Virus record (IMG/VR): IMGVR_UViG_3300023179_000377
Location: 1-29,494 of that record
Length of the DNA: 29,494 bases
From: a virus
Reading direction: 5' to 3' (one strand)
Made by a program: the position numbers and the translations under genes. The notes beneath the pieces were generated by a model. The model was given only the letters and a program-made list of their open reading frames with translations, ran no database searches and was not told where the DNA came from. Of the stretch, positions 1,668 through 29,494 are shown piece by piece (the stretch's first letter is position 1; every line of letters begins with the position of its first letter).

Positions 1668-2417
1668 TTACTTCCCATATTTAGCCTTTGTTTCGTTGTA
1701 ATTCTGAAGGATCTCTGTGTCGGTTAAGGCACGATCGTATGAAAGGACTTCACCAATTTTTCCGGAAAAATAAAGTGGGTTTGAGGGGTTCACATAACGC
1801 GCGAGGTAAGACACGTTTTTAGTTGTGTAAGTTGGGCGATAACCTCCGTTGTTTTCAAATTGTCCGTCAACATACAGGCGAAGACCAGGAGCCCCTGGTC
1901 CACCTTTCCAGGTCACCACGAAGTTACGCCATACACCGCCAGGGAGTGTGTTAGGAGCCCATACGTCGCCGTCTGAGATCCAATAAAAACGATTCGTGCC
2001 AGTGGAGCTGAAGTTTCCCTGACCAAAAGATGCATGAGATGCTGGTACACCATAAGCAATAATTACACCGTCAGCACCTTGGCACAACACCCACGTCGAC
2101 AGCGTGCGTTCTGGCTCCTCGCCGTAAACGAAGGCGTCGTTGTTCAGCACGGCATATTGATTCGTTCCGTTGAATTCGAACCACCCACTGCTGTTCCAGG
2201 TTGGCCCATTGACGAGCTCAGCGTTATGATCGTTGCCTGATTGGTCTTGCCACACAGAACCGCCTGAGAATGCCGATCCCTCTAGCTGCATCAGTAATCC
2301 AGAACGAACGATGTTAGGAAGCTGTATGCCACCACCCCCTCCGCCCGAGCTTCTGACCTTCATCCCTGTTTTCGTAAAATCTCCGCGGATATTAAGTCCG
2401 CCCATCTTTATAGCCAC
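1668..2417 (-). CDS. LamG/concanavalin-like adhesin (fibre tip type)
   Basis: The protein has 249 residues. Residues 1-21 (MAIKMGGLNIRGDFTKTGMK) are nearly identical to the start of the neighbouring 453-residue protein, followed by a glycine linker (SSGGGGGGI). Residues 36-249 have the hallmarks of a LamG/laminin-G3 jelly roll: VWQDQSGNDHNAELVNGPTW, FEFNGTNQYAVL, a central WRNFVVTWKGG and LRLYVDGQ, ending in GKIGEVLSYDRALTDTEI. Such domains bind glycans and are common in phage tail-fibre and surface proteins. The start codon is GTG where the paralogue has ATG; both share a leader with GGAAAGAG upstream. It is the last gene of a three-gene minus-strand unit and converges on the flavoprotein gene. 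A receptor-binding role is inferred from the fold and the shared anchor. Confidence 0.75.
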   Translation of the reverse strand: MAIKMGGLNIRGDFTKTGMKVRSSGGGGGGIQLPNIVRSGLLMQLEGSAFSGGSVWQDQSGNDHNAELVNGPTWNSSGWFEFNGTNQYAVLNNDAFVYGEEPERTLSTWVLCQGADGVIIAYGVPASHASFGQGNFSSTGTNRFYWISDGDVWAPNTLPGGVWRNFVVTWKGGPGAPGLRLYVDGQFENNGGYRPTYTTKNVSYLARYVNPSNPLYFSGKIGEVLSYDRALTDTEILQNYNETKAKYGK

Positions 2418-14783: not shown

Positions 14784-17700
14784 ATGTCAGAGCAGTCCTT
14801 CAAGTCCCCAAATTTCTACGAACGTGAAATAGACCTTTCGAGCCCGCGAGTCACAGGACCGGTCGGAGTTCCTGGTGCAATCATCGGCACTTCTAACAAG
14901 GGTCCTGCTTTCGTTCCTGTCACCGTCGCAAATTTCAGTGAGTTCACGAACATCTTTGGTAACCTCGATCCGATGCATGCTGGACCCTATGCTGCCAACG
15001 AGTTCTTGAAGAACAAGACAGCATTGACTTACCTAAGAGTCCTAGGTGCTGGTGCGAACTCGACAGCTGCAGACGTCTCTAACACTCTCCTCAAGGGCAC
15101 AGTTGTCAATGCAGGTTTCACTCGCTTGGGCACATCCGGCTCGGCGCACAGTGCTGACAAGAGACACAGAGGCGCAGTACAGTTTCTCGCTGCTACACAC
15201 ACGCTAGGCGCACACGAAGGAACTTCGGTCGCTTACTTCACAGACAACGACACGACACTGGGAGCTTCTTCTGTCAACCTCGTGAGAGGAATGATCATGA
15301 CCCCCGACACTTCAAGGGTCTATGTCACGTCAGAGACGAACATCACCCCGTCTTTCTTTTCGACCCCCACGTCGGTCAACGACGACTTTACGATGGGAAG
15401 CACAGGAAAGTTCAAGATCATCATCTCTTCCAGCTTAGGATCTAATTTCTCTGCGTCTGATGGCATTCCGGGCCTTCTGATCCTCACAGCGTCATTCGAT
15501 CCAACGAGCAAGGACTACTTTGGAAAGGTCCTTAATTCTGATCCGGATAAGTTCTACACGAATCAGCACTACTTGCACGCAGACTTAGCTGTTGATGTAC
15601 CCGTCGCTTACGTGGCTTCTAACGCTCATGTTGCATTGCTCTCGGGCTCGGCCAACACTTCGACATCATCTGGTGATCCGAATCTTACGTTCCGCGAGGT
15701 CTTTGGCAAGTATGATACGAGATACACCACACCGGCGACATCTTTCTTCATCTCTCAGCCATTCGGTGCTGTTGAGCATGACCTCTTCAAGTTCGAAGCG
15801 ATCGATGACGGAGAGTATGCAAACAGTCTCTACAAGATCTCAATCACTAACGTTAAGGCGTCGTTGAACGACTCATACAAGTTCGGTACATTCAACGTTC
15901 AGATTCGTGACTGGAAAGACACAGATCTCAACCCTGTAGTCATAGAACAGTTCAGCAACTGTTCTCTCGATCCTAGCTCTCCAAACTATGTTGCAAAGAT
16001 GATTGGAGACAGGAAGGTCTCCTACAACTTTGACACTGACGTAACTTCAGAGAAGCGCCTGTTCGCTTCCGGCAAGTATTCAAACAACTCTAAGTACGTT
16101 CGGATCGTGATGAACGAAGACGTTGAACTTGGTAAGATACCTACTAACGCGCTTCCTTTCGGATTCAGAGGGCCCGAGATTCTCAATATCAACCCGTTGC
16201 TAGCAGCAAGTGATTCTCTATCAGCTGTCAATGCTAGACTAGGTGGTCAGCTTTCTACTGCTGCACTATCTCTCACAAGCTCATTCTTGCCTCCCGTTCC
16301 TCACCGTTTCAAGGTAACGAGAGGCGAGGTAACAGGAAGCAACTTCCTCGGTCAACCTGGCCCATCTGAGCAAGCAAACCCGACTTTCTACTGGGGAGTT
16401 AAGTTCGAGAGAAGCAGCACCTCTTCTGACCCTTCTGCAGACAACAGAGTGATACTCAACAACAACGTGATAACTGAGAAGAACGAGCTTCTCCATTCTT
16501 ACACGAAATTCTGTGGCATTAGAAAGCTTGATGCACTTGTTACGGGGTCGTCAGTAGACTCCCTCAATAACAATAAGTTCAGTCTCTCCAAGGTAGCCTT
16601 CTACAACAGCGACATCTCGCATCTGACTGCTTCTATCAACACGCACATGAAGGAAGCAGCATACATCAGAAATGCGAAAGTCGATACTACGACGTATAAC
16701 GTCAAAGATCCGTTGTCTTCACAGACGAGAATAACGCTGGCATCACTTCTCGCTCAGGGAACTGCCCCTCAGTTCAACAGATTCTCGACCTTCACGAAGT
16801 TTACCAACTTCATGTACGGCGGATTCGATGGAACCAACTTCCTTAACAGAGACGCTCGTCGACTCAACGACAAGTCGGTGTCATTCGATTCTCCTGGTGG
16901 CGCTTCGGGGGCGAATGCTGCAGTTCCTCTCGGATTCTCTTCAAACCCATCTGGAGAGGGACCGGATAACAATGGCGTCACATCTTATCTCACAGCTGTT
17001 GACATCGTGACAAACCCGATGGAGGCGAACAACAACCTTCTCGCGATACCCGGCATCAAGGAGCCCTACGTCAATGATCAAGCTGCGAAGAAGGTAAAGA
17101 ACTACGGACTCGCCATGTACGTCATGGACGTCCCGGGCTACGACGATGATCAAGAGCGTTTGTACGATGACTCGACGAAGAAGCCCAATATCAAGAATAC
17201 GGCTGCTCTGTTCGACGGCCGCTCCATCGACAACGACTATGCTGCAGCATACTTCCCAGACGTATTTCTAGACGATTCTACTAATCGTCGCAAGGTAAAG
17301 GTTCCTGCATCTGTCGCAGCACTTGGAGCCCTAGGCTTCAACGATAGAATCGCATATCCGTGGTTCGCTCCCGCCGGTTTCAATCGTGCAGCCCTAGACT
17401 TTGTCACGAACGTCGACGTAAGATTGAATGTTGCCGACAGAGATCGGCTCTATGAGTCGCGCATTAATCCCATCGCAACGTTCCCAAGGCTAGGATATGT
17501 GATCTACGGTCAGAAGACGCTGAAGATTAATAAGTCTGCTCTCGATAGAGTCAACGTCAGGCGCTTGATGCTTGAGCTCAAGCGTATCATCGTTGGGATC
17601 GCTCAGAGAATCGTCTTCGAGCAGAACACACCTGCAGTCAGAAACAAGTTCGTAGCAGACGCATCATTCCAGCTCGGACTCGTCCAGCTACAAGCAGGAA

Positions 17701-17858
17701 TAGAGGCATTCCAGGTCATCATGAACGAGTCCAACAACACACAGGACGACGTCGATCTCAATCGCCTCAACGGACGAATCGTCGTCATACCAACTCGTGT
17801 GGTGGAGTTCATCGCGATCGACTTCATTATCACGAACGCCGGTGTGGAGTTCGTGTGA
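14784..17858 (+). CDS. gp18: Tail sheath protein, copy 1 (gp18-like)
   Basis: The protein has 1024 residues, against 659 for T4 gp18. The N-terminus (NFYEREIDLSS...GVPGAIIGTSNKGPAFVPVTV) is the classic sheath opening. The middle part shows the gp18-like block FNVQIRDWKDTDLNPVV followed by the segment around FSNCSLDPSSPNYVAKMIGD. The C-terminal 150 residues hold PWFAPAGFNRA, VNVRRLMLELKRII and the final strands (GRIVVIPTRVVEFIAIDFII) that lock onto neighbouring subunits and the tube. The extra 350 residues fall between the N-terminal and core domains, where sheath proteins carry outward-facing insertions. It has a strong ribosome site and its own promoter candidate. It is followed by a diverged copy. 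Confidence 0.95.
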   Translation: MSEQSFKSPNFYEREIDLSSPRVTGPVGVPGAIIGTSNKGPAFVPVTVANFSEFTNIFGNLDPMHAGPYAANEFLKNKTALTYLRVLGAGANSTAADVSNTLLKGTVVNAGFTRLGTSGSAHSADKRHRGAVQFLAATHTLGAHEGTSVAYFTDNDTTLGASSVNLVRGMIMTPDTSRVYVTSETNITPSFFSTPTSVNDDFTMGSTGKFKIIISSSLGSNFSASDGIPGLLILTASFDPTSKDYFGKVLNSDPDKFYTNQHYLHADLAVDVPVAYVASNAHVALLSGSANTSTSSGDPNLTFREVFGKYDTRYTTPATSFFISQPFGAVEHDLFKFEAIDDGEYANSLYKISITNVKASLNDSYKFGTFNVQIRDWKDTDLNPVVIEQFSNCSLDPSSPNYVAKMIGDRKVSYNFDTDVTSEKRLFASGKYSNNSKYVRIVMNEDVELGKIPTNALPFGFRGPEILNINPLLAASDSLSAVNARLGGQLSTAALSLTSSFLPPVPHRFKVTRGEVTGSNFLGQPGPSEQANPTFYWGVKFERSSTSSDPSADNRVILNNNVITEKNELLHSYTKFCGIRKLDALVTGSSVDSLNNNKFSLSKVAFYNSDISHLTASINTHMKEAAYIRNAKVDTTTYNVKDPLSSQTRITLASLLAQGTAPQFNRFSTFTKFTNFMYGGFDGTNFLNRDARRLNDKSVSFDSPGGASGANAAVPLGFSSNPSGEGPDNNGVTSYLTAVDIVTNPMEANNNLLAIPGIKEPYVNDQAAKKVKNYGLAMYVMDVPGYDDDQERLYDDSTKKPNIKNTAALFDGRSIDNDYAAAYFPDVFLDDSTNRRKVKVPASVAALGALGFNDRIAYPWFAPAGFNRAALDFVTNVDVRLNVADRDRLYESRINPIATFPRLGYVIYGQKTLKINKSALDRVNVRRLMLELKRIIVGIAQRIVFEQNTPAVRNKFVADASFQLGLVQLQAGIEAFQVIMNESNNTQDDVDLNRLNGRIVVIPTRVVEFIAIDFIITNAGVEFV

Positions 17859-17905: not shown

Positions 17906-20900
17906 ATGGCACAGTTGAAATTCGGAAGCGCAGGTGTAACAGCACGTGAAATAGACCTCTCGGGTCCCGTATCACAATCTCCTGTAGGAGTACCCGCAGG
18001 AATCGTTGGTACTTCCAAGAAGGGACCGGCATTCGTTCCCATAACAGTTGGAAACATCAACGACTGGTACGCGAAGTTTGGTCGGACCGACGGAAAGAAG
18101 TTCGGTCCACTTGCTGTGTTGGAGTGGCTCAGGAACGCACAGGCTGTCACCTATCTTAAGGTCCTCGGCGTAGGAACAGGACGAATGAGGAATAACGACG
18201 GCACAGTAACAAGTGCCGGCTTCACTGTTGGAGATCAACTCTTCGACGAAAATGGTTATAAGTCTGGCAACATTTACGCAAATACCGCGGGTGACCCCGG
18301 ACGTACCTACTTCCTCGGATGCTTCATGTCTGAATCAGCAGGGTCTACGATCTTCAGTGATGCTGGATTGCAGGGTCCCGGATCTGTTACTCCAGGCAGC
18401 TCTACAGCGCTTCCTATCGTAAGAGGTGTGCTGATGGCACCCTCAGGCGTCTATCTCACGCTCTCTGCTTCAATGCAGACGATCGACTCTTCGAAACCTT
18501 TAAAAACTGATATCGGATCTACGGGCAGCTATAAAGGCTTTGCAGTTGGTGATGTTGTTCTCTCAAGTAACGGTGTTCCGAAGCAGGACTTCACACTTCT
18601 CCTCAACGGTCACAAGGGAACAAATCCAACTTATCCCAACATAATCACAGCGTCATTTGACGTGAGATCAAACAACTACATCGCCAAATCACTCAACACA
18701 GACCCCTATAAGATCCAAGAGGCCGGCCACTATCTCTATGCTCACTGGGACATCCACCCTGTCCTCGCCGCAGTCACAGGAACAGGTCTCGTTGCAGCAG
18801 CTTATGGAGCTGGCGGTACGAAGCATGCCGGCATTGAAACAGCAGCTTTCGTTCTTCACTCTGGCGAAGACAGAGGCACAGGTACAGATTCAGTTCCCAA
18901 CTATGAGTCTTTCACTGATAGATTCGGTCATGCTAAGACACCCTGGATCGTTTCACAGAAGTTCGGCGGAAGAGCCCAAGAGCTCTTCAGACTACACTCG
19001 CTTGACGACGGCGCAGGAGTCTCCACCAGTGTGAAGGTGTCGATTGAGAATATCACACCCTCTACGGATCCTCTCAACAGGTTCGGATCTTTCAACGTAG
19101 TGCTTCGTGTGTGGTCTGATAGAGACCTCGACAAGAAAGTTGTCTCAAACGAGACTTTCAGCGGTGTCAACCTCGATCCTTCTTCTGACAGATACATCGG
19201 CAAGGTTATAGGAGACGTCCACGCTTACTATGACTTCGACCGTGAGGAGTCCGAGCAGAAGCTAGTGATCGAGGGCAACTATGAGAACAGATCTAGCTAT
19301 GTCCGAGTTGAAGTACACCCAGACATTGTCAACGGATTCGTAGACCCTACTGCGATACCGATGGGATTCCGAGGAATTGACCATCTCGTGACGAGCGGAT
19401 CTTCTCCCCTTGAATCTGTCGCCACAGCACATGGAACGCTGTCTGTCTCTAATGCAACGAGGAGAGCTGTCACTCCACCCCTTCCCTTTAGGACGAGGAT
19501 AACGACAGGCACTGAAGACACGAACATGGAACAGCTTGAACCAAGCTTCTACTGGGGAGTTCAGTTCGAGCATCCTGAGACCTTGGCCTCGAAGAACACT
19601 TCTGTGCTTCCAAACTCCGGCTTGACTTCTTACGCCAAGTACTTCCCAGACTTTGCTGTAGGAACAGCCAAATTCGTTACAGGAAGCAATGCTGGAGACC
19701 CAGACACAGTCAATCTCGGGATCGTCGATGCTGATAGGTTCTGCAACAACTTCTTCACTCTCGAAAACCTCCAAGTCGTGACGGGATCGAACGGCCTCGC
19801 CAACCCTGACAAGTGGCTTTCAGCCCGATACCTCAGGAACGGTAAGGTTACTGTCAGCGACCCAGACAAGACGAGAGCTTTCACCACAGACGATCTCTTG
19901 TCGAACAAGCGGTTCGCTAAGTTCACTCTCTTCATGCAGGGCGGATTCGACGGTGTCAACATCTTCGATGAAGACTCTGCAGAGCTTCTCAACCCAGCCG
20001 TAACAGCAGAGATGGATTCTGCTTCTGACCGCGGTCTTGCTGAGGGACCAACCGTGAGGACATACCTCAAGGCGATCGAAGTGATGCAGAACACGACGAA
20101 CGTCGACATACAGCTCTTCGCCATCCCGGGCATCCGCGAGCCCATCGTCACAGATGCAGCTACTCTGGCCGTCGAGGATCGTTTCGACGCGATGTACGTC
20201 ATGGACATCGAAGAGAAGGACGATTCGAACACAAACGTCGTTCTCGACACCCAGGTACCGTCCGTTACAAACACGATCAACACATTCATCGATCGCAGCG
20301 TCAACTCCTCCTTCGCTGCAGCGTACTTCCCAGACGTCCTCTACAGCGATCCAACGGGTGCTAACCTCTTCGTTCCCCCGTCAGTCCTCGTCCTCGGGGC
20401 TCTGTCGTTGAACGACTCAGTCGGACATCCATGGTTCGCCCCCGCCGGTTTCACAAGAGGTGCTCTCCCAGACGCAGCACTCGAACCCCGCGTGAGGCTG
20501 AATCAGGCTGACATGGACAAGCTGTACGACAACAAGATCAACCCGCTCGTTGCATTCCCAGGTGCAACACGGGGAGGAACTAATCCTCGGAGTGGAATCG
20601 TAGTGTGGGGACAGAAGACGCTCCAGGTCGCAGCTTCGGCTCTCGACAGGGTCAACGTCCGCCGTCTCCTCATCGAGATCCGTCGTCAGGTGCGAGACAT
20701 CGCTCAGACGATCCTCTTCGAGCCCAACCGAGAGGCAACACTCGCACGATTCTCTTCAGCTGTCACACCCCGTCTACAGAGAATCCAAGCTCTCAGCGGA
20801 CTCGAGCGGTTCAAGGTCATCATCGACTCCTCGACGACGACTCAGGACGACATCCTCAACAACACGATCCGTGGAAAGATCTACGTGCAGCCCACGAAGA

Positions 20901-20953
20901 GCATCGAGTTCGTCTCCCTCGACTTCGTGGTGGCCAACAACATACAGCAGTGA
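17906..20953 (+). CDS. gp18: Tail sheath protein, copy 2 (gp18-like paralogue)
   Basis: The protein has 1015 residues and is collinear with the preceding sheath gene from end to end. Matching anchors are REIDLSGPVSQSPVGVPAGI, GTSKKGPAFVPITVGN, FNVVLRVWSDRDLDKKVVS, SFYWGVQFE, PWFAPAGFTRGALP, ALDRVNVRRLLIEIRRQVRD and the closing KSIEFVSLDFVV. Between anchors the two differ widely, so this is an old duplication, not a recent copy. Both C-terminal linking domains look complete. GGGAG lies 7 bases upstream of ATG 17906, and the gap between the two genes is 47 bases with no terminator, so both are probably expressed together. Whether both enter one sheath or form alternatives is not visible. Confidence 0.95.
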   Translation: MAQLKFGSAGVTAREIDLSGPVSQSPVGVPAGIVGTSKKGPAFVPITVGNINDWYAKFGRTDGKKFGPLAVLEWLRNAQAVTYLKVLGVGTGRMRNNDGTVTSAGFTVGDQLFDENGYKSGNIYANTAGDPGRTYFLGCFMSESAGSTIFSDAGLQGPGSVTPGSSTALPIVRGVLMAPSGVYLTLSASMQTIDSSKPLKTDIGSTGSYKGFAVGDVVLSSNGVPKQDFTLLLNGHKGTNPTYPNIITASFDVRSNNYIAKSLNTDPYKIQEAGHYLYAHWDIHPVLAAVTGTGLVAAAYGAGGTKHAGIETAAFVLHSGEDRGTGTDSVPNYESFTDRFGHAKTPWIVSQKFGGRAQELFRLHSLDDGAGVSTSVKVSIENITPSTDPLNRFGSFNVVLRVWSDRDLDKKVVSNETFSGVNLDPSSDRYIGKVIGDVHAYYDFDREESEQKLVIEGNYENRSSYVRVEVHPDIVNGFVDPTAIPMGFRGIDHLVTSGSSPLESVATAHGTLSVSNATRRAVTPPLPFRTRITTGTEDTNMEQLEPSFYWGVQFEHPETLASKNTSVLPNSGLTSYAKYFPDFAVGTAKFVTGSNAGDPDTVNLGIVDADRFCNNFFTLENLQVVTGSNGLANPDKWLSARYLRNGKVTVSDPDKTRAFTTDDLLSNKRFAKFTLFMQGGFDGVNIFDEDSAELLNPAVTAEMDSASDRGLAEGPTVRTYLKAIEVMQNTTNVDIQLFAIPGIREPIVTDAATLAVEDRFDAMYVMDIEEKDDSNTNVVLDTQVPSVTNTINTFIDRSVNSSFAAAYFPDVLYSDPTGANLFVPPSVLVLGALSLNDSVGHPWFAPAGFTRGALPDAALEPRVRLNQADMDKLYDNKINPLVAFPGATRGGTNPRSGIVVWGQKTLQVAASALDRVNVRRLLIEIRRQVRDIAQTILFEPNREATLARFSSAVTPRLQRIQALSGLERFKVIIDSSTTTQDDILNNTIRGKIYVQPTKSIEFVSLDFVVANNIQQ

Positions 20954-21354: not shown

Positions 21355-23013
21355 CTATCGGAGAGTCATCTCGTACACGACGTTTTCACACCCCCAGATC
21401 TTCACGACACCAGCCGCCTCTGCCACTTCCGCTTCTGTGAGTCCGTTCGCAGAGTCTGCCCTGTACTTGAATCGATTGTATCTCTCTTCAAAGTCAGTCC
21501 ACCAGAAGCGCGGAGGAGTTCTGTCTACCTCGACGAATCCTGCAACTGCGTATCCTCTCCCGGTGCCACCGTGTCTCGTGTCGACGTACGTCATCAGTTT
21601 GTCGTAGCCTTCTTGTCTACCCCAAGCCGAGGCCTCACGTACTAATCGGCTCAGACCTCCGGGCACGTTGTGACCCAGTGCAGCCGCACATCGTGCGACC
21701 TCTATGACGCCCTCTTTCCTATGGAAGGGACTTCTCACTGAGAGTGCATAGACGAGAGTGTCTCGGTCGAAGAGACCCCATGCTGCTTTAGACGCTACGT
21801 CTCCGTCGATGTGGTTCGTTTCAAAGAAAGACCTTCTAATCCCAGGTTGCAAGGGCTTCACGACGCATCGCCGAGCACCGACAGACTGTGTGCTCATCTT
21901 GAGGCGGGAAGAGATCATAGACTTGACGATATCAGTCTTGTCACGCCACTCGTCTTCGAACACGTGTAGGAGATTCACGCCTGCAGCAACAGCCGCTGCT
22001 GTCTTGTTCGCGTGGTATGAAGACGAACGATTCGTGTGGGAGTGCCAGTAGAGACCGTTGTACTCAATGCCTAGACACGAGTCAGGAACGTAGATGTCTA
22101 GCTCAAGACCTCCCAGCTTCGTTCGATCGTTCCGCTTCACTGTGCACCCAATACTCTCTAGCCACACTGCGATGCTCTCTTGCGCCACCGAGCCACCAGG
22201 AGAGCATTTGAAGCACTTGCCATACTGCAGGGACCTCAGGGATCCGTAGAACACCTCACTACAGCTAGAGCACTGTACTTGGATCACCTTCTGAGCATCG
22301 TTGATGTAACTCTCGAGGCCTCCTACTACACGGAGTCGCCCCGACGCCTCGACTCGTTCTCTGATTTCTTCAGTCCCGAGGCGCTTCATGCTGTCGAGGT
22401 ACCGCCTGATGTTCTCTTGCCGCAGTGTCATTGACACACGGTTCGCCATCGCGTCGACGCGCTCGTCTGTCTCCCTCGTGAGGCCCTTCGCCCATGGCGT
22501 GACTTTACCCTCTGCATACTGTATCTTTAGCTGCTCTGCAGCGGCAGCGATCCTCGGGTCAGACGCAGCGGTGGAGCCTTTGTTCCACGCTACGATGTCA
22601 CCTGACTCGAAAGCAGCCTTTCTGCCGCTGCTCGTCGCTGCTCCCCTCGCTGCGACCCTCGGGTCGCCCTCAGCAGTGAGGCCCTTGCACCAAGACTCTT
22701 TGCCCTTCAGCGACGCACTTCTCTTTTTGGATATCTGCGCAGCTTCTTCGGGTGTACACGTGGCATATATGGAACCGTTGTGACCCGTCAGCACCTTCGA
22801 GTAGCCCTTCCACCAACCGTTCCATCGCGTCTCTGCTCCGCATCCGCATGCACAACGACCCGGTCCGTCGTTCACAGCGTCCCACACGTCTTTCAGGGTC
22901 TTGCCGTGCTTGTCGATCACATGAGCCTCGAAGTTCGTCAGCCTCTTCGTCTCAAACGAGTCACACAACGGACACACTGCTACCCGCAGCTCTCTTCCTT
23001 CAATAGCACCCAT
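21355..23013 (-). CDS. Homing endonuclease, Vsr/EDxHD-type, with zinc fingers
   Basis: The protein has 552 residues and is inserted against the direction of the tail genes. In order: a C2H2-like finger (C14, C17, H31, H36); a CACGCG knuckle at 54-59; three repeats of a W-x-K-G-x-T motif with following D-P/E-R (WCKGLT 109, WNKGST 143, WAKGLT 174), typical of DNA-binding modules in homing enzymes; and a four-Cys ribbon (C248, C251, C267, C270). The nuclease core is at 278-370: ESIAVWLESIGC, LELDIYVPDSCLGIEYNG, WHSH and HVFEDEW, the pattern of the Vsr/EDxHD family. A C-terminal part (YVDTRHGGTGRGYAVAGFVE) follows. It would cut a DNA site and spread its own gene. The GGAG ribosome site is good, with no TAYTTA promoter. 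Confidence 0.85.
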   Translation of the reverse strand: MGAIEGRELRVAVCPLCDSFETKRLTNFEAHVIDKHGKTLKDVWDAVNDGPGRCACGCGAETRWNGWWKGYSKVLTGHNGSIYATCTPEEAAQISKKRSASLKGKESWCKGLTAEGDPRVAARGAATSSGRKAAFESGDIVAWNKGSTAASDPRIAAAAEQLKIQYAEGKVTPWAKGLTRETDERVDAMANRVSMTLRQENIRRYLDSMKRLGTEEIRERVEASGRLRVVGGLESYINDAQKVIQVQCSSCSEVFYGSLRSLQYGKCFKCSPGGSVAQESIAVWLESIGCTVKRNDRTKLGGLELDIYVPDSCLGIEYNGLYWHSHTNRSSSYHANKTAAAVAAGVNLLHVFEDEWRDKTDIVKSMISSRLKMSTQSVGARRCVVKPLQPGIRRSFFETNHIDGDVASKAAWGLFDRDTLVYALSVRSPFHRKEGVIEVARCAAALGHNVPGGLSRLVREASAWGRQEGYDKLMTYVDTRHGGTGRGYAVAGFVEVDRTPPRFWWTDFEERYNRFKYRADSANGLTEAEVAEAAGVVKIWGCENVVYEMTLR

Positions 23014-23124: not shown

Positions 23125-23616
23125 ATGGCTGCTGAAACACTTGACGTAACATCGATGATTCCTGTGAAATTCGAACCAAAACGTAAAAACAGATGGGTAC
23201 TCATGATTGAGGGCATCGATGCCTACATCATCAAGACGACAGCTCGACCCACGATAACGACGGAAGAGGTCGAAGTGCCGTTCATCAACTCCCGTCGGTA
23301 CCTCGCGGGCAAGACCACTTTCGGAACGATGGCTGTGACGCTCCACGACCCGATCGCTCCCTCAGGTGCACAGCAGGTGATGGAGTGGGTGAGAACTCAC
23401 TTCGAGTCAGTGTCCGGACGTTCCGGCTATGCTGACTTCTACAAGCGTGACATCCAGCTGAAACTGCTGGATCCCGTCGGAACTGTGGTCGAGCTCTGGG
23501 ACATCAAGGGTGCATTCATCACCGAGGCGAACTTCGGCGAGGTGACCTACGAGGACGGTGGACCCACCGAGATCTCAATGACACTTCGCTTTGATAACTG
23601 TGTGCTCCAGTTTTGA
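23125..23616 (+). CDS. gp19: Tail tube protein, gp19-like
   Basis: The protein has 163 residues, the same length as T4 gp19. Features fit the tube fold: an N-terminal arm (MAAETLDVTSMIPVKFEPKR), the strand pair NRWVLMIEGIDAYIIKTTAR, a mid-domain GTMAVTLHDPIAPSGAQQVM with E-W-V-R, DFYKRDIQLKLLDPVGTVVE, and the closing GAFITEANFGEVTYEDGG then EISMTLRFDNCVL. It forms the hexameric rings of the inner tail tube through which DNA passes. ATG 23125 is chosen over upstream frames because AAGGAG lies 10 bases before it. It has its own promoter candidate and terminator, as expected for a very abundant protein, and is bracketed by two homing endonuclease genes. Confidence 0.9.
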   Translation: MAAETLDVTSMIPVKFEPKRKNRWVLMIEGIDAYIIKTTARPTITTEEVEVPFINSRRYLAGKTTFGTMAVTLHDPIAPSGAQQVMEWVRTHFESVSGRSGYADFYKRDIQLKLLDPVGTVVELWDIKGAFITEANFGEVTYEDGGPTEISMTLRFDNCVLQF

Positions 23617-23658
23617 CGCTGTACTTCGACAATCGCGACTGACAATTGTCTTCATGAG

Positions 23659-23689
23659 AGAGGCTGCTTCGGCAGCCTCTTTCGATTTA
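23659..23689 (+). terminator. Strong Rho-independent terminator with cUUCGg loop
   Basis: AGAGGCTGC and GCAGCCTCT form a 9-base perfect stem closed by a C(TTCG)G tetraloop, followed by TTCGATTT. It ends the tail tube unit. Confidence 0.9.
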
Positions 23690-23728
23690 AGATTGTACAA
23701 TTTCTTATCAAAGTCTATAGTTAGGAGT

Positions 23729-24499
23729 ATGAAGTGTCCAAGCTGTGAAGTTCAGTACGATAAGCTTATCTCTCTTTCTCTACACTATAGAAAAGTCCAT
23801 AGTGGTACTGCAAAGCAGCTGCGTATCGACCTCTTCCACGGCGGCAAAGAACCTACCTGTGCCTGCGGTTGTGGTACACCGACGAAGTTCATGTCCGTCG
23901 AGAAGGGATTCTCAGAGTATGCTTGGGGACACCAAGCGAAGGTGAGGAACAATTGGGGTCACAACGATTCTGCTCGAGCAAACAGCCTAAAGAAGCGTCG
24001 CGACGACAGCCTGTGGAACAAGAATCCATGGAACAGGGACAAGACCAAAGAAGACGACGATCGTCTCGCAGTTGCAGGAAAGACACTCAAAGAAAGACAC
24101 GGAGAGAGATACGCTTCTCTGATGAGGGAAAATAGACTATCGGGAGCTATACCAACGCTCACCGGTCCTTCTCACCCATTGTGGAAAGGCGGTGTCTCAG
24201 AGCTCGGTGCCATGTGTCGCTCTCGCCTCTATCGGGAGTGGTCTTTCCCAAAGATGGCTGCAGCCGGTTTCAAGTGCACCTCGTGCGGTGCAGATCGGAA
24301 CCTCGAGGTTCACCACGACGGTGAGCGTTTCGCGACCATCCTCCAGAAGGGCATTGAGACGTTGGGAGAACCCAGTGACGACTGGGACCGCAAGACATGC
24401 TTCGTCGACTGGGTCCTGTGGTACCACACCACGAACGACGTCTCAGGCAAGGTGTTGTGCTCTCACTGCCACGATGCACTGCATCAGCGCGGCTTCTAA
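23729..24499 (+). CDS. HNH homing endonuclease with zinc finger
   Basis: ATG 23729 gives 256 residues beginning MKCPSCEVQYDKL; upstream in-frame sequence is the tube terminator region. In order: a C2H2-like finger (C3, C6, H19, H24); a CACGCG knuckle at 44-49, as in the Vsr-type enzyme; a basic linker with NKNPWNRDKT and a PLWKGG segment at 150-155; and the HNH domain with C183-x2-C186, NLEVHH (191-196) and C244-x2-CH (247-248). It would nick or cut DNA and home into alleles lacking it. The AGGAG before the start is only one base away from ATG, so translation is probably weak. It sits just after the tube gene's terminator. Confidence 0.85.
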   Translation: MKCPSCEVQYDKLISLSLHYRKVHSGTAKQLRIDLFHGGKEPTCACGCGTPTKFMSVEKGFSEYAWGHQAKVRNNWGHNDSARANSLKKRRDDSLWNKNPWNRDKTKEDDDRLAVAGKTLKERHGERYASLMRENRLSGAIPTLTGPSHPLWKGGVSELGAMCRSRLYREWSFPKMAAAGFKCTSCGADRNLEVHHDGERFATILQKGIETLGEPSDDWDRKTCFVDWVLWYHTTNDVSGKVLCSHCHDALHQRGF

Positions 24500-24550: not shown

Positions 24551-25117
24551 TTAGAAGCCCCTGCTGTCCTTAGCAGCAGAGTTGTAGTAGACGAGACTCG
24601 AGACGTTTGTGGTCTTCGATATCGTCGGTGTCGAGTAGCTGAACGTCAACAGGTTCGGCCCACCTATATCCCCAAATATGACGAGGATGGGATAGCTGAC
24701 CCCGGCTGTGAGTGTAACAGACGCAGAGACCTCCTTTGATCCGTGAGGTCCGCCGTTGTTGACGAGACAGTTAGATACCGTTGCACCACGTTTCGTGTTC
24801 TCGCCGATCCACATGTAAGAAGCATCGTCGCTGTTGAGGTAGAACGTGTAGGTATCAGTGGTGGCAGGCCGAAAGTAGCCCGTCCATCTGACGCTGAAGT
24901 TGTCGTCCCCGCTGGGAGACGTGTCTGAGATTGCCGTTGGGTAGGTAGTCGCGGAGATCGTTCTTCCGTCGAACCACGCGGGGTCGTCGGCAAAGTAGCC
25001 GCTGTTGTACCTGTCTTTCTTTATCCCGCTCACGTACACCGGCTCGACGTAAGAGAACCCGTTGCCGAATCCGCAGGACTGTGAGAATCCGAAAGCCTGG
25101 TTGAATCCGGTGTTCAT
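24551..25117 (-). CDS. PA14-domain surface protein
   Basis: The protein has 188 residues. Residues 38-150 follow the PA14 fold: GYFADDPAWFDGRTI, then NFSVRWTGYFRPATTDTYTF, YLNSDDASYMWIGE and a later strand SVTLTAGVSYPILVIFGDIG. PA14 domains bind carbohydrates in adhesins, glycosidases and toxins. The N-terminal 36 residues are Gly/Phe/Asn-rich (FNQAFGFSQSCGFGNGFSYV) and may be an attachment strand. It starts one base after the upstream gene's stop, so the two are one operon. It is probably a receptor-binding or fibre-tip protein, inferred from the domain and the phage tail context. Confidence 0.75.
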   Translation of the reverse strand: MNTGFNQAFGFSQSCGFGNGFSYVEPVYVSGIKKDRYNSGYFADDPAWFDGRTISATTYPTAISDTSPSGDDNFSVRWTGYFRPATTDTYTFYLNSDDASYMWIGENTKRGATVSNCLVNNGGPHGSKEVSASVTLTAGVSYPILVIFGDIGGPNLLTFSYSTPTISKTTNVSSLVYYNSAAKDSRGF

Positions 25118-25653: not shown

Positions 25654-26535
25654 ATGAGTGAAGACAGAGAGCAGAAGAACGCAGTGTTTGGACAGGGAAT
25701 TACCAGCCTGCCGGCGGGCGTTGACCCGAGGATGCCCAGGACGACAGCTGCGGACAAGGCGAAGTCAGACTTCGGCCTCGACATACCGCAAGAGATCGTT
25801 CCGCTTCCGTCGAATGGCAAGGTGTATCCCCCTGACTCTACACTCTACGGATCTGATTCTGTTGAGATCAAGGCGATGACGGCGAAAGAAGAGGACATCC
25901 TCACTTCTCGTGCGCTCCTCAAGAAGGGTACAGTCATCTCTGAGCTGATCAAGTCATGCCTCATCGATAAGTCAATCAATCCACTTGACCTGCTGTCAGG
26001 TGACCGCAATGCACTGATGGTGGCGATCCGAATCACAGGGTACGGTCCTGAGTACAACGTTGAGATGGAATGTCCCGAGTGCTCTGTAAAGTCTCCCCAC
26101 GCATTCAACCTCGGCACTCTTCCTATCAAGCGGCTTGAGATCGAGCCTGCAATTCCGGGCTCTAACGTCTTCGAGTTCAAGCTTCCCTACAGCGGAAAGA
26201 TCGTCAAATTCAAGTTCATGACGGGACGTGACGAGGAAGAGATGTCTCAGCTCGCCGAGAAGCAGAAGAAGCTCGCTCTCGGAACAGAGTCTAGCGTCAC
26301 TACCTCTCTTCTCTTCTCCATCATCTCGATCGACGGTATCGAAGACAGAGCGAAGATCGCTAACTTCGTCAAGGTGATGCCTGCTCGAGACTCTCTAGCA
26401 CTCCGGGACTACGTCAAGGACAATGAGCCAGGTATCGTCATGAAGCAGGACACTACTTGCAACGCTTGTGGTCACACAGAGGAGGTCTCCATGCCACTCG
26501 GCGTCACGTTTCTTTGGCCTTCAGCCGGAAGATAG
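25654..26535 (+). CDS. Baseplate/tail-assembly protein, gp26-like
   Basis: The protein has 293 residues. VPLPSNGKVYPP (49-60), then VEIKAMTAKEEDILTSRALL and later TGYGPEYNVEMECPECSVKS match the family named after the T4 baseplate protein gp26. Two C-x2-C pairs (C140/C143, C269/C272) could bind zinc. Gene order places it between the tube and tape measure genes, where tail-assembly chaperones lie in many myophages. Ribosome site CAGGAGA. The frame ends at TAG 26533. A second ORF continues in the +1 frame and looks like a missing C-terminal part. An internal ATG at 26491, preceded by GAGGAGG, would make only 14 residues. Confidence 0.7.
   Translation: MSEDREQKNAVFGQGITSLPAGVDPRMPRTTAADKAKSDFGLDIPQEIVPLPSNGKVYPPDSTLYGSDSVEIKAMTAKEEDILTSRALLKKGTVISELIKSCLIDKSINPLDLLSGDRNALMVAIRITGYGPEYNVEMECPECSVKSPHAFNLGTLPIKRLEIEPAIPGSNVFEFKLPYSGKIVKFKFMTGRDEEEMSQLAEKQKKLALGTESSVTTSLLFSIISIDGIEDRAKIANFVKVMPARDSLALRDYVKDNEPGIVMKQDTTCNACGHTEEVSMPLGVTFLWPSAGR
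26512..26535 (+). other. Candidate +1 frameshift window
   Basis: In the gp26-like frame the codons read TTT CTT TGG, then six more codons to AGA TAG. CTT followed by T is the slip used in the bacterial RF2 gene, where CUU re-pairs on UUU. A second option is AGA immediately before the TAG stop. Either joins the gp26-like protein to the downstream ORF, which has no normal start codon near the junction. Confidence 0.45.
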
Positions 26536-26782
26536 AGCTAATGTCATACTGGAACCCGCCTTCCTGCTCACGTATTACGGCGGGTTCCTCTATGAGGAAG
26601 TACAGAACATGCCTGTTCAGTACAAGCGTTGGTTCATAGAGCGGATAAGCAGAGAGCTCAACAGGACTTCCGAATCGGGACAGACCCAGTCACGCGCTCT
26701 CCACCAGAATGACTCAGAGACCCGTGCACTGATGGGCCGTACACGAGAGTCTTCTCCATCGAGACTCAGACGTTTCACATAA
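26513..26782 (+). CDS. +1-frame extension of the gp26-like protein
   Basis: About 88 residues in the +1 frame relative to the gp26-like gene. The meaningful part begins right at the gp26 stop: EDRANVILEPAFLLTYYGGF, then LYEEVQNMPVQYKRWFIERI, then a polar tail (SESGQTQSRALHQNDSETRA). This has the look of a conserved helical domain, with an M-P-x-x-Y-x-R/K-x-x-I/M motif like the ends of other tail chaperone proteins. No ATG or TTG lies in this frame before residue N-M-P; the only earlier choice is a GTG at 26468 inside the previous gene without a ribosome site. So it is either made by frameshift fusion, or a sequencing error or real mutation split one gene. Confidence 0.55.
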   Translation, partial: FGLQPEDRANVILEPAFLLTYYGGFLYEEVQNMPVQYKRWFIERISRELNRTSESGQTQSRALHQNDSETRALMGRTRESSPSRLRRFT

Positions 26783-26834: not shown

Positions 26835-27134
26835 ATGCACCAAGAAGAAGAGAAGCAGTCTCTCAACGAGTTGTCTTTCGGACTCAACCTCGCAGGAAAG
26901 ATTTTCCTAGCTTCGTGTGGAGCATGGTTGGTTGGAAAGCTTGTCAACATGAAGCTTCGAGGCACGAGAGAAGAAGTCGGAGCGGTTGCAAATGCTCTCA
27001 TGGCGTCTCGTCGGTTCCAGGACGAGCTCAACAGGCCCGGTGCCTCGGTAGAGTCTGTTGTCGAGAAGTTGCGCATCAAGAATATGTCTGCCGCAGAGTT
27101 TGAGAGAGTCCTCGGCGTACGCTGGCCACTCTGA
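26835..27134 (+). CDS. Small conserved protein before the tape measure gene
   Basis: I start at ATG 26835 (MHQEEEKQSLNELSFGLNL...), 99 residues, because GCAGGAGAC lies just upstream. It has one moderately hydrophobic helix (LAGKIFLASCGAWLVGKLV, residues 19-37) and then a soluble helical domain (TREEVGAVANALMASRRFQD, SVEKLRIKNMSAAEFERVLG with minor gaps). The ending is VRWPL. The hydrophobic helix may be a membrane segment or may pack on the tape measure. It ends 14 bases before the tape measure gene, so it is in the same operon and may assist it. Confidence 0.65.
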   Translation: MHQEEEKQSLNELSFGLNLAGKIFLASCGAWLVGKLVNMKLRGTREEVGAVANALMASRRFQDELNRPGASVESVVEKLRIKNMSAAEFERVLGVRWPL

Positions 27135-27148
27135 CGTAGGGAGTCGAC

Positions 27149-29494
27149 ATGGCTGATCCGAGTGGCAATAATCCTGGTGGACCTGATCCTCGAGTAGCAC
27201 AAGAGATAGCTCGAGCGATGCAGGCAGTGAGAGACAACACTGTCGCTGCCACAAGAGCGTTCGAAGATCAACTTCGAATCGTTACGCAGCTGAGAGATGC
27301 GATGCAGCAGATGTCTAGTATCGATATGACGAAGACGGGACCATCAGCCCAATCTGCAGCAGATTGGCAGAAGGTTACGAATGAGCTGAATAAGTCGCGT
27401 AAGGCTTCGGACACTACCACAGAATCTCTCAAGAAAGCATCTGTTGTGATGCAGTCCAAGTTTGCGAAAGCTGCCATCGTAGGTGCTAGCGCCCTCAGCG
27501 GTCTAGGTCAGGGCTTCAGAAATCTCTATGCGCTGACGAAATCAGTAGGTAGCTTCTTTGGCTCCGTGGTCTCTGGCGCTACAAAGGTGGCAAAGTCAAT
27601 CATTGCAATTCCGTTTACGATGATAAATAAACTGTTTAGCATGGCCCAGAGTGGCGGCGGATCCAACGAATTGGCTGTCGCACTTGAAGAAGTCAGAGCT
27701 CAGTTCGGAGACCTAAACAGCACAGCGTCTCAGACAGTCATTCAAGGTGCCAGGAGCATGGAGGGCTTCGCCGGTGCTGGTATCAGTGCGTTGCGTGTGT
27801 TTGGCAACGTCGCCGAGCGAATGAAACTGCTCAATAAGCTAGCCGGCGACTTAGGACCGCTCTTTCTAGCAAATATAGAAAAATTCAAGGGAGCCGAGGG
27901 TGCAATTCTCGGTTATCAAAAGGGACTCGGCCTCACAAACGAGATGATGTCTGCTGTCACTGTTAGGGCACAGCAGATGGGAACAGGTGTTACTGACGTT
28001 CTCAATGACATGACTAAGTTGTCGCTCGGCATGGCTAAGTCTATGGGTCTCAATGCTAAGGTCTTGTCCCGCGACATGGGAAAGGCGATGCAGGACAGCG
28101 CTCGATTCGGACACCTACTTGGAAAAGAGATTGCAGCCAACGCCGCGTACGCTCAAAAGCTGGGCGTCTCTCTCGACAAGCTGACAGGACTCATGGATAA
28201 GTTCGAGACTTTTGACGAAGCTGCAGAGTCTACGTCAAAGTTGAACGAGCAGTTCGGACTCAACATCGACGCCCAAGAGATAATGTCTGCTCAGTCACCT
28301 GGAGCGAAACTCGACATACTCAGGAAGCAATTTGCAGCGACGGGTAAAGATCTCAAAGATCTCACCTACCAGGAGAGAAAGCTCATTGCTGCTAACACGG
28401 GCCTCGACGCTTCTACGCTTGACACTGTTCTCGCTCAAGAGAAAGCCGGCGTTTCTTTTGATGAGATGACGTCTGCTAGCGAGTCAGCCGAGAAGAAGCA
28501 GTTGTCTCAGACAGAGGCGATGCACGAACTTGCCACAGCAATGGAGCGCATCACTCAAAGCGGCGGCGGCGAAGGCGGCGGAATATTTGCGCACATCTTC
28601 CGAGGATTTGCTAGGGGAGTTCAGTCGAACAAAGAGTTCATCGGTTTGATGCGCAACATCAACATCGTGATGAGAGAGGCTACGATCTTCGGCGTCAAAC
28701 TCGGAAAGATGTTCGTGGATCTCTTCCCAGGCGTTAAAGACATCTTCGGCGGATTGAAGGACATGTTCGATCCTAAGCGCTTCAGGAAGATGTTCGATGG
28801 AGTCCTGAAGGCTTTTGACGTCTTTAAAGTCGGTGGCAGCGGCAAGATGGAAGACTTCATGGACAACATCAAGAAGGTCTTCACAAACTTCTTTGATGAA
28901 GGAGCCCCGGCGGGAAAAAAGGTCCTCGAAGGATTTAAGAAATTCTTCAAGGCTATGTTAAACGTCGTTGGTGCTGTAGGCGCCTGGCTTGTTCCAAAAC
29001 TCTCTGAGATTATAGTAAAGATAACCGACTGGATTCGAAATCCAAAAGTTCCAAAAGTTTCCACCGATGGCCTGGGTAACGTCGTGATGTCACCCATGGA
29101 GAAGGCCCTCGAGGCTGTCAAAGAGAAGCTTGTTCCTGCTCTCGAGGATTTAGCCTCAGCGATCTGGGATAGACTGAAACAAGCATTGATGAGCAGCATT
29201 GGCAAGAAAGCTCTCGCTGGAGCAGCTCTGACTGTTCTTGCCCCTGCCCTGTTGAACGGCCTGCTCGGAGCATCTTCTGCAGGAATCTTCTCTAGCGCCG
29301 GAAAGTTGATAGTGAAAGGTCTTACGGGTGGACTCGCGGCTGAAGATGCAGGGGCAGTAAAAGATATAGGGCTGGGACTGTTTGGCATCGCTAAGAAGGT
29401 GACGTCTAATCCCGAGACGATGGCAAAGATAAGTGGACAGTTCGCTAAGTTTGGAGAAATACTTGGTCCACGAGCGATGAAAGCGATACCTGTC
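27149..29494 (+). CDS. Tail tape measure protein (partial, N-terminal 782 residues)
   Basis: The frame is open from ATG 27149 (TAGGGAG 5 bases upstream) to the window end, 782 codons with no stop, so the gene continues. The protein starts polar (MADPSGNNPGGPDPRVAQEI), then long helical stretches with few aromatic residues, alternating with hydrophobic segments. These include VGAVGAWLVPKLSEIIVKIT and, at about residues 687-710, LAGAALTVLAPALLNGLLGA. A Gly-rich break (SGGGEGGG) lies near residue 472. Length, composition and position after the tube gene fit a tape measure, which sets tail length and is ejected into the host. No lysozyme or peptidase motif is visible in this part. Confidence 0.8.
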   Translation, partial: MADPSGNNPGGPDPRVAQEIARAMQAVRDNTVAATRAFEDQLRIVTQLRDAMQQMSSIDMTKTGPSAQSAADWQKVTNELNKSRKASDTTTESLKKASVVMQSKFAKAAIVGASALSGLGQGFRNLYALTKSVGSFFGSVVSGATKVAKSIIAIPFTMINKLFSMAQSGGGSNELAVALEEVRAQFGDLNSTASQTVIQGARSMEGFAGAGISALRVFGNVAERMKLLNKLAGDLGPLFLANIEKFKGAEGAILGYQKGLGLTNEMMSAVTVRAQQMGTGVTDVLNDMTKLSLGMAKSMGLNAKVLSRDMGKAMQDSARFGHLLGKEIAANAAYAQKLGVSLDKLTGLMDKFETFDEAAESTSKLNEQFGLNIDAQEIMSAQSPGAKLDILRKQFAATGKDLKDLTYQERKLIAANTGLDASTLDTVLAQEKAGVSFDEMTSASESAEKKQLSQTEAMHELATAMERITQSGGGEGGGIFAHIFRGFARGVQSNKEFIGLMRNINIVMREATIFGVKLGKMFVDLFPGVKDIFGGLKDMFDPKRFRKMFDGVLKAFDVFKVGGSGKMEDFMDNIKKVFTNFFDEGAPAGKKVLEGFKKFFKAMLNVVGAVGAWLVPKLSEIIVKITDWIRNPKVPKVSTDGLGNVVMSPMEKALEAVKEKLVPALEDLASAIWDRLKQALMSSIGKKALAGAALTVLAPALLNGLLGASSAGIFSSAGKLIVKGLTGGLAAEDAGAVKDIGLGLFGIAKKVTSNPETMAKISGQFAKFGEILGPRAMKAIPV

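Follow-up and report, generated by a model that had tools for sequence, protein, structure and literature searches.

Control of tail length by short and long chaperone forms has been described as relying on lambda-type frameshifts in nearly all long-tailed phages, with T4 as the exception (PMC5009743). T4-like phages encode the short and long chaperones, gp26 and gp51, as separate genes (Vladimirov, Gautam, and Davidson 2022, Virology 566:9-15, as cited in PMC10885494 and PMC12846349), and, compared with T4 gp51, the cyanophage protein of that name is missing the first ~200 residues and is similar to the C-terminal part (Sullivan et al., PMC3037559). The tail chaperones of Vandenendeviridae and Andersonviridae, such as that of Pseudomonas phage Adele, use a -1 frameshift (PMC12846349). 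Shifts of +1 have also been reported by PRFect in an annotated actinophage set (PMC10885494), so the +1 direction alone is not new. We describe here a gp26-type locus that, judged from sequence comparison, very probably encodes short and long forms of a tail assembly chaperone by means of a programmed +1 ribosomal frameshift.

The locus lies on a contig of 29,494 bases from an uncultured virus (IMG/VR record IMGVR_UViG_3300023179_000377), the whole of which was analyzed and is referred to below as the window. The features of the locus and its surroundings are as follows.

25654 to 26535, plus strand: gp26-like gene, candidate short tail assembly chaperone (TAC-N or lambda G analogue), PF12322 T4_baseplate.
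26479 to 26485, plus strand: GAGGAGG within the coding sequence (Glu-Glu-Val), 26 bases before the slip codon, found in some members of the family and not in others.
26509 to 26520, plus strand: putative frameshift site TTT CTT TGG CCT, near-invariant in 75 distinct loci, with the P-site codon CTT at 26512-26514, the skipped base T at 26515, and the first +1 codon GGC at 26516-26518.
26516 to 26782, plus strand: +1-frame C-terminal domain, DUF6760-like, 88 amino acids, in the +1 frame in all loci, with pN/pS of about 0.26 and three confidently predicted helices.
26533 to 26535, plus strand: TAG stop of the short product, read directly.
About 26835 to 27134, plus strand: small open reading frame (ORF) after the chaperone locus and ahead of the presumed tape measure gene, from the ORF list, with a counterpart in locus L001.
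27149 to 29494, plus strand: presumed tape measure protein, from its position and the annotation of relatives, continuing past the window end.

The gp26-like gene matches Pfam T4_baseplate at 2e-16 (60.8 bits, against a curated cut-off of 24.5) and a PHROG "baseplate hub" family at 1.4e-18. Its 3′ codons are ACG TTT CTT TGG CCT TCA GCC GGA AGA TAG. An earlier reading of the window, made from the sequence alone, held that this frame ends at 26533 and is continued in the +1 frame, and both points stand: the continuation reaches 26782, in a frame open from before 26468, and the joined product (gp26 part plus +1 domain; TAC-NC or GT analogue) would have 375 amino acids. The gp26-like protein also carries conserved CxxC pairs at residues 140-143 and 269-272, which may make up one zinc site. 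Gene order in the window and its relatives is tube, gp26, +1 domain, small ORF, and tape measure, the last assigned by position. The description of the site as lying before the tape measure gene was therefore broadly right, with the qualifications that the small ORF intervenes and that the tape measure is identified by position and by the annotation of relatives. A tail tape measure is annotated at the equivalent position in Flavobacterium phage immuto and Listeria phage LIS04, and a Pfam search of 27149-29494 matched no model.

Other genes of the window include two consecutive tail-sheath-like genes of ~1,020 amino acids each (14784-17858 and 17906-20953; Pfam and PHROGs sheath matches), that is, a duplicated sheath gene. 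Two zinc-finger- or HNH-like ORFs without a Pfam match (21355-23013, minus strand, and 23591-24499, plus strand) lie next to the tail tube gene and ahead of gp26 and are possibly homing endonucleases inserted in the tail module. A PA14/GLEYA domain protein is encoded on the opposite strand within the same module (24551-25117, minus strand), a Laminin_G_3 protein at 1668-2417 (minus strand), and a phage-borne flavodoxin-like or NADPH-dependent FMN reductase at 919-1581.

Relatives were collected from IMG/VR. A search with the +1 domain found two close loci at 64% identity; querying with the gp26 part yielded over 600 matches, of which the best 80 were used. The comparison covers 81 related loci, 75 of them distinct (under 90% identity). 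In all 81 loci (75 distinct), wherever the sequence continues, the domain follows gp26 in the +1 frame, and never in the 0 or +2 frame. The gp26 frame of the relatives stops 9 to 21 bases past the start of TGG.

The 12-base junction has the consensus TTT YTT TGG CCT and is near-invariant over the 75 distinct loci. Codon -2 is TTT in 73 and TTC in 2; the slip codon before TGG is TTT in 64, CTT in 11, and TTC in none; the A-site codon is TGG in 74 and TAC in 1; and the codon after it is CCT in 72, TCT in 2, and CCA in 1. TTT has a background frequency of 0.73 among the Phe codons of the same genes, which gives its use at all 64 Phe slip codons a P of 1.6e-9; the use of CTT at all 11 Leu slip codons has a P of 2e-4. 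Re-pairing one base forward is always possible because the slip codon is TTT or CTT followed by T, the only codons here that allow it, and never TTC, which does not. These counts bear out the choice of CTT T (26512-26515) as the slip sequence in the sequence-only reading; it lies in the gp26 frame, and related loci show only CTT or TTT there. Conservation of CCT is explicable because this codon helps form a +1-frame Leu codon, and FFWP may be conserved partly for the sake of the short protein. Two loci read TTC TTT TGG, and in those at least the slip would therefore fall at the second codon; a slip at the first TTT is possible in the others. A +1 stop lies 8 to 14 bases upstream of TGG in 29 of the 75 loci and, taken with the gp26 stop, would confine the shift to about 20 to 30 bases.

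Two candidate accessories to the slip site find no support. The AGA-TAG stop context is variable in relatives and located after the slip site, and GAGGAGG, 26 bases upstream of CTT, is too distant to act as in RF2 and is unlikely to stimulate a frameshift. GGAGG recurs at one fixed position, 28 bases upstream of TGG, in 27 of the 75 loci, within a stretch coding for Glu-Val. Just 2 of the 75 have, 15 bases or less from the slip site, a G-rich element that could serve as an RF2-like Shine-Dalgarno sequence, and no conserved downstream RNA structure was found across the distinct loci (mean fold z, -0.33).

The +1 domain is under purifying selection and evolves as a protein, with a median pN/pS of 0.26 over 603 pairs; between the window and L001, pN is 0.27 and pS 0.94, with synonymous sites near saturation. 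Its consensus in relatives is GLxxxYxExVYExxFxLKYxGGWSFxEAYNLPVxLRRWFxxRL. The domain of the window itself scores E 0.023 against DUF6760 (PF20546), short of the cut-off, and the model is matched at E<=0.01 by the domains of 14 of 48 relatives, with 1.7e-4 as the best value.

Homologues with both parts in one frame, proposed earlier as the support to seek for a fusion, were found. Two Bacteroidota contractile-injection-like loci (L202 871-1626 and L203 871-1626) each carry the T4_baseplate-like and DUF6760 parts in a single ORF. The ORF of L202 matches PF12322 at 2.3e-9 and DUF6760 at 1.4e-6, and its junction, ...MQSFFMLRLTGERRNLLEEVH..., has FF at the position of the phage slip codons. In a third Bacteroidota injection-system locus (L201), the DUF6760 part occupies a separate frame past an upstream stop. 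Searches for DUF6760 gave 3 matches in 395 Bacteroidota genomes and none in the 7 genomes holding L193-L199.

Among named phages, the +1 part by itself (an 87-amino-acid query) found no match, and chimeric consensus queries matched only Mel-JY01 and one uncultured phage; the other relatives were reached through the gp26 part. Microcystis phage Mel-JY01 has the +1 arrangement with TTT TTT TGG CCT and is annotated with two overlapping genes, and immuto has it with TTT CTT TGG CCT, the +1 domain not being annotated as such. The gp26 frame is also continued in the +1 frame, after TTT C or TTT T, in Streptomyces phages BRock and LuckySocke, Streptococcus phage SagM-GXN1, Bacillus phage SP-15, and LIS04, the site in BRock and SP-15 being TTT C.

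Other relatives shift in the opposite direction. T TTT TTC and T TTT TTT are textbook -1 heptamers, and right after one of them the domain appears in the -1 frame in the jumbo phages RaK2, Munch, BF, PA5oct, Atu_ph07, and XacN1 (L090-L092 and L096-L098). The -1 continuations of these six phages are mostly unannotated or recorded as a "hypothetical gene". In cyanophage-type loci (L107-L188), all 55 distinct junctions read nnT TTT TTC Gnn stop (for example, L107 2178-2196), and TTT TTC is invariant in the 25 loci that are under 90% identity (P=1e-13 for TTC alone). The annotation there calls the -1 frame a small "gp51", and this frame contains an ATG of its own, 17 bases past the start of the heptamer's first codon. 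With both a heptamer and an ATG present, frameshift and separate start are each open at these loci; a -1 frameshift yielding a gp26-gp51 fusion is likely.

The cyanophage ATG bears on the main rival to a frameshift in the window, which is that the second ORF is a separate small gene, translated from a start codon of its own, perhaps not AUG, or by ribosomes that re-initiate where gp26 ends. This is the view of the annotators: the second coding sequence of Mel-JY01 begins at TTG. The separate frame of L201 also agrees with it. In the window, the +1 frame offers a single ATG, GTG, or TTG upstream of the conserved part, namely the GTG at 26468; the next start is an ATG within the domain. The continuation has, as was first noted, no ATG or TTG ahead of its conserved part, and the GTG, with no visible Shine-Dalgarno sequence before it, could in principle start the second frame, as could starts in some relatives. 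However, 33 of the 75 loci have no ATG, GTG, or TTG from the last +1 stop to base +30, that is, in the open +1 stretch ahead of the domain. Independent initiation also leaves unexplained both the absence of TTC before TGG and the exact TTT TTC of the 25 distinct cyanophage-type loci, and one-frame fusions exist. We regard a separate gene as improbable. Still less probable is transcriptional slippage, in which a run of T would alter the mRNA and make a ribosomal slip unnecessary; many relatives do have seven T (TTTTTTT) at the site, but the window and 10 other distinct loci keep the same arrangement with TTTCTTT, in which no more than three T are consecutive, and the site is TTT C in BRock and SP-15. 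An assembly error or a broken (pseudogenised) fused gene, conceivable for an uncultured viral contig, is the least credible reading of all, since 75 distinct loci and the sequenced phages Mel-JY01 and immuto all share the frame break and the +1 side is under purifying selection; chance or a sequencing slip is likewise refuted by the recurrence of the +1 arrangement and the 12-base junction in 81 loci (75 distinct). The comparative evidence, from the 75 distinct loci and from the one-frame homologues, thus strongly supports the initial proposal of a programmed +1 frameshift joining the gp26-like and second frames.

The relation of the locus to the two T4 genes was examined by profile comparison and phylogeny. 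PF12322 is matched by both T4 gp26 (8.8e-64) and T4 gp51 (3.9e-52), and gp51 has an extra tail of ~48 residues. In HHalign, the cyanophage -1 domains compared with gp51 homologues align exactly to this tail (97% probability; E 1.5e-10), with a score of about 60 versus at most 16 in column-shuffled controls (n=100). The marine +1 domain alone gave a nonsignificant 5 to 6% against the T4 gp51 tail; its link to that tail needs the cyanophage intermediates. Scores of the fused profile against T4 proteins in HMMER were weak. The complete frameshift-bearing phages examined have one PF12322 gene and T4 has two, Mel-JY01 and immuto falling under the search threshold and having the gene found by tblastn. 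A maximum-likelihood tree groups the TGG-type +1 proteins together (96/92), and likewise the T4 gp26 and gp51-type proteins (98/90), which adjoin the cyanophage -1 group; several of its branches are long, which makes its deep order uncertain.

Structures of the gp26 part and the +1 domain were modeled separately with AlphaFold2. The gp26 model has a pLDDT of 88, and the +1 domain is predicted as three helices with a pLDDT of about 95 over residues 11-50. Foldseek found nothing in the PDB for the gp26 model at E<=0.001, and PDB sequence searches with the fused protein or T4 gp51 gave no match. The top PDB chains for the gp26 model in VIA-align were 3fgx (uncharacterised; Z 5.8), 2ob9 (HK97 tail assembly chaperone; Z 5.6), and 3klu (YqbN; Z 5.5), all below Z 8. 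Known tail assembly chaperones are thus among the nearest neighbours of the predicted fold of the short product, a suggestive result, as Z values of 5.5 to 5.8 are no proof of a shared fold by themselves. In a viral structure library, the best functionally named match of the gp26 model was the baseplate hub subunit of SP-15 (E 3.5e-20).

The sequences themselves show the frame relation, the conserved site, the lack of starts in many relatives, the selection on the +1 protein, and the one-frame homologues; from these we infer slippage, its probable codon, its low rate, and a chaperone function, as follows. The majority of ribosomes would stay in the gp26-like frame as far as the TAG at 26533 and make the short protein. 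A minority would pause with the peptidyl-tRNA on CUU (mostly UUU in relatives) in the P site and UGG (Trp) in the A site; the paused tRNA would slip one base forward and re-pair with UUU, and reading would resume in the +1 frame at GGC CTT CAG to give the 375-residue long form. In the manner of lambda gpG and gpGT, the two forms would then cover the tape measure protein and bring in tail tube subunits.

We consider it reasonably probable that a stop-codon-independent +1 shift at YUU UGG C, conserved in a very large and mostly uncultured group of myoviruses, is how chaperones of the T4 gp26 type produce their long form, and that the family has arrived at four solutions to a single need: a +1 shift, a -1 shift, a one-frame fusion, and two paralogues (T4 genes 26 and 51, which would then derive from a frameshifted gene). 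With frameshifts in both directions in the wider relatives of gp26 and gp51, the two-gene state of T4 can be read as a derived alternative. Frameshifting, thought absent from T4-type phages, would be common in their relatives and here take an unusual forward form. If it works, the +1 site would provide a compact natural test of forward slippage, on a sense codon, with no RF2-type Shine-Dalgarno sequence and no conserved structure detected. The comparison also corrects annotation, the end of the long form being missed or entered as a separate "hypothetical gene" in public records such as those of immuto, Mel-JY01, and BRock.

In the literature searched, where Vladimirov et al. 2022 is represented by the papers citing it, no report describes a +1 shift for genes of the gp26 type or a conserved YTT TGG CCT site. 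The part that appears to be new is a +1 form that is conserved widely and falls on a sense codon (YUU UGG C); frameshifted chaperones and the T4 two-gene state are known.

The heptamer has two parallels outside phage tails. In bacterial prfB (RF2), CUU UGA C likewise has a CUU U slip codon that re-pairs to UUU, but there a stop codon occupies the A site, a Shine-Dalgarno sequence lies three bases upstream, and the shift regulates release factor, whereas here the A site holds UGG, a sense codon, GAGGAGG stands 26 bases before the slip codon, and a second product would be made. The +1 site of the yeast Ty1 element, a eukaryotic retrotransposon, is CUU AGG C; it shares the P-site CUU, a slow sense codon in the A site, and GGC as the first +1 codon, a likeness of the heptamer only that implies no common origin. 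Among phages, lambda G/GT has the same place just upstream of the tape measure gene and the same short and long forms with a common N-terminal part, but lambda shifts by -1, and the present shift is +1, at YUU UGG C, in another protein family (PF12322). The Adele-type, cyanophage, and RaK2- and PA5oct-type shifts also use a T-rich site near the end of the short form and upstream of the tape measure, but in the -1 direction at GTTTTT or T TTT TTC rather than +1 at YTT TGG C. T4 gp26 and gp51 belong to the same Pfam family; gp26 corresponds to the short form, and gp51 extends that form by a tail to which the shifted domain is related. T4 uses two genes without a frameshift where the present locus would use one gene with a +1 shift.
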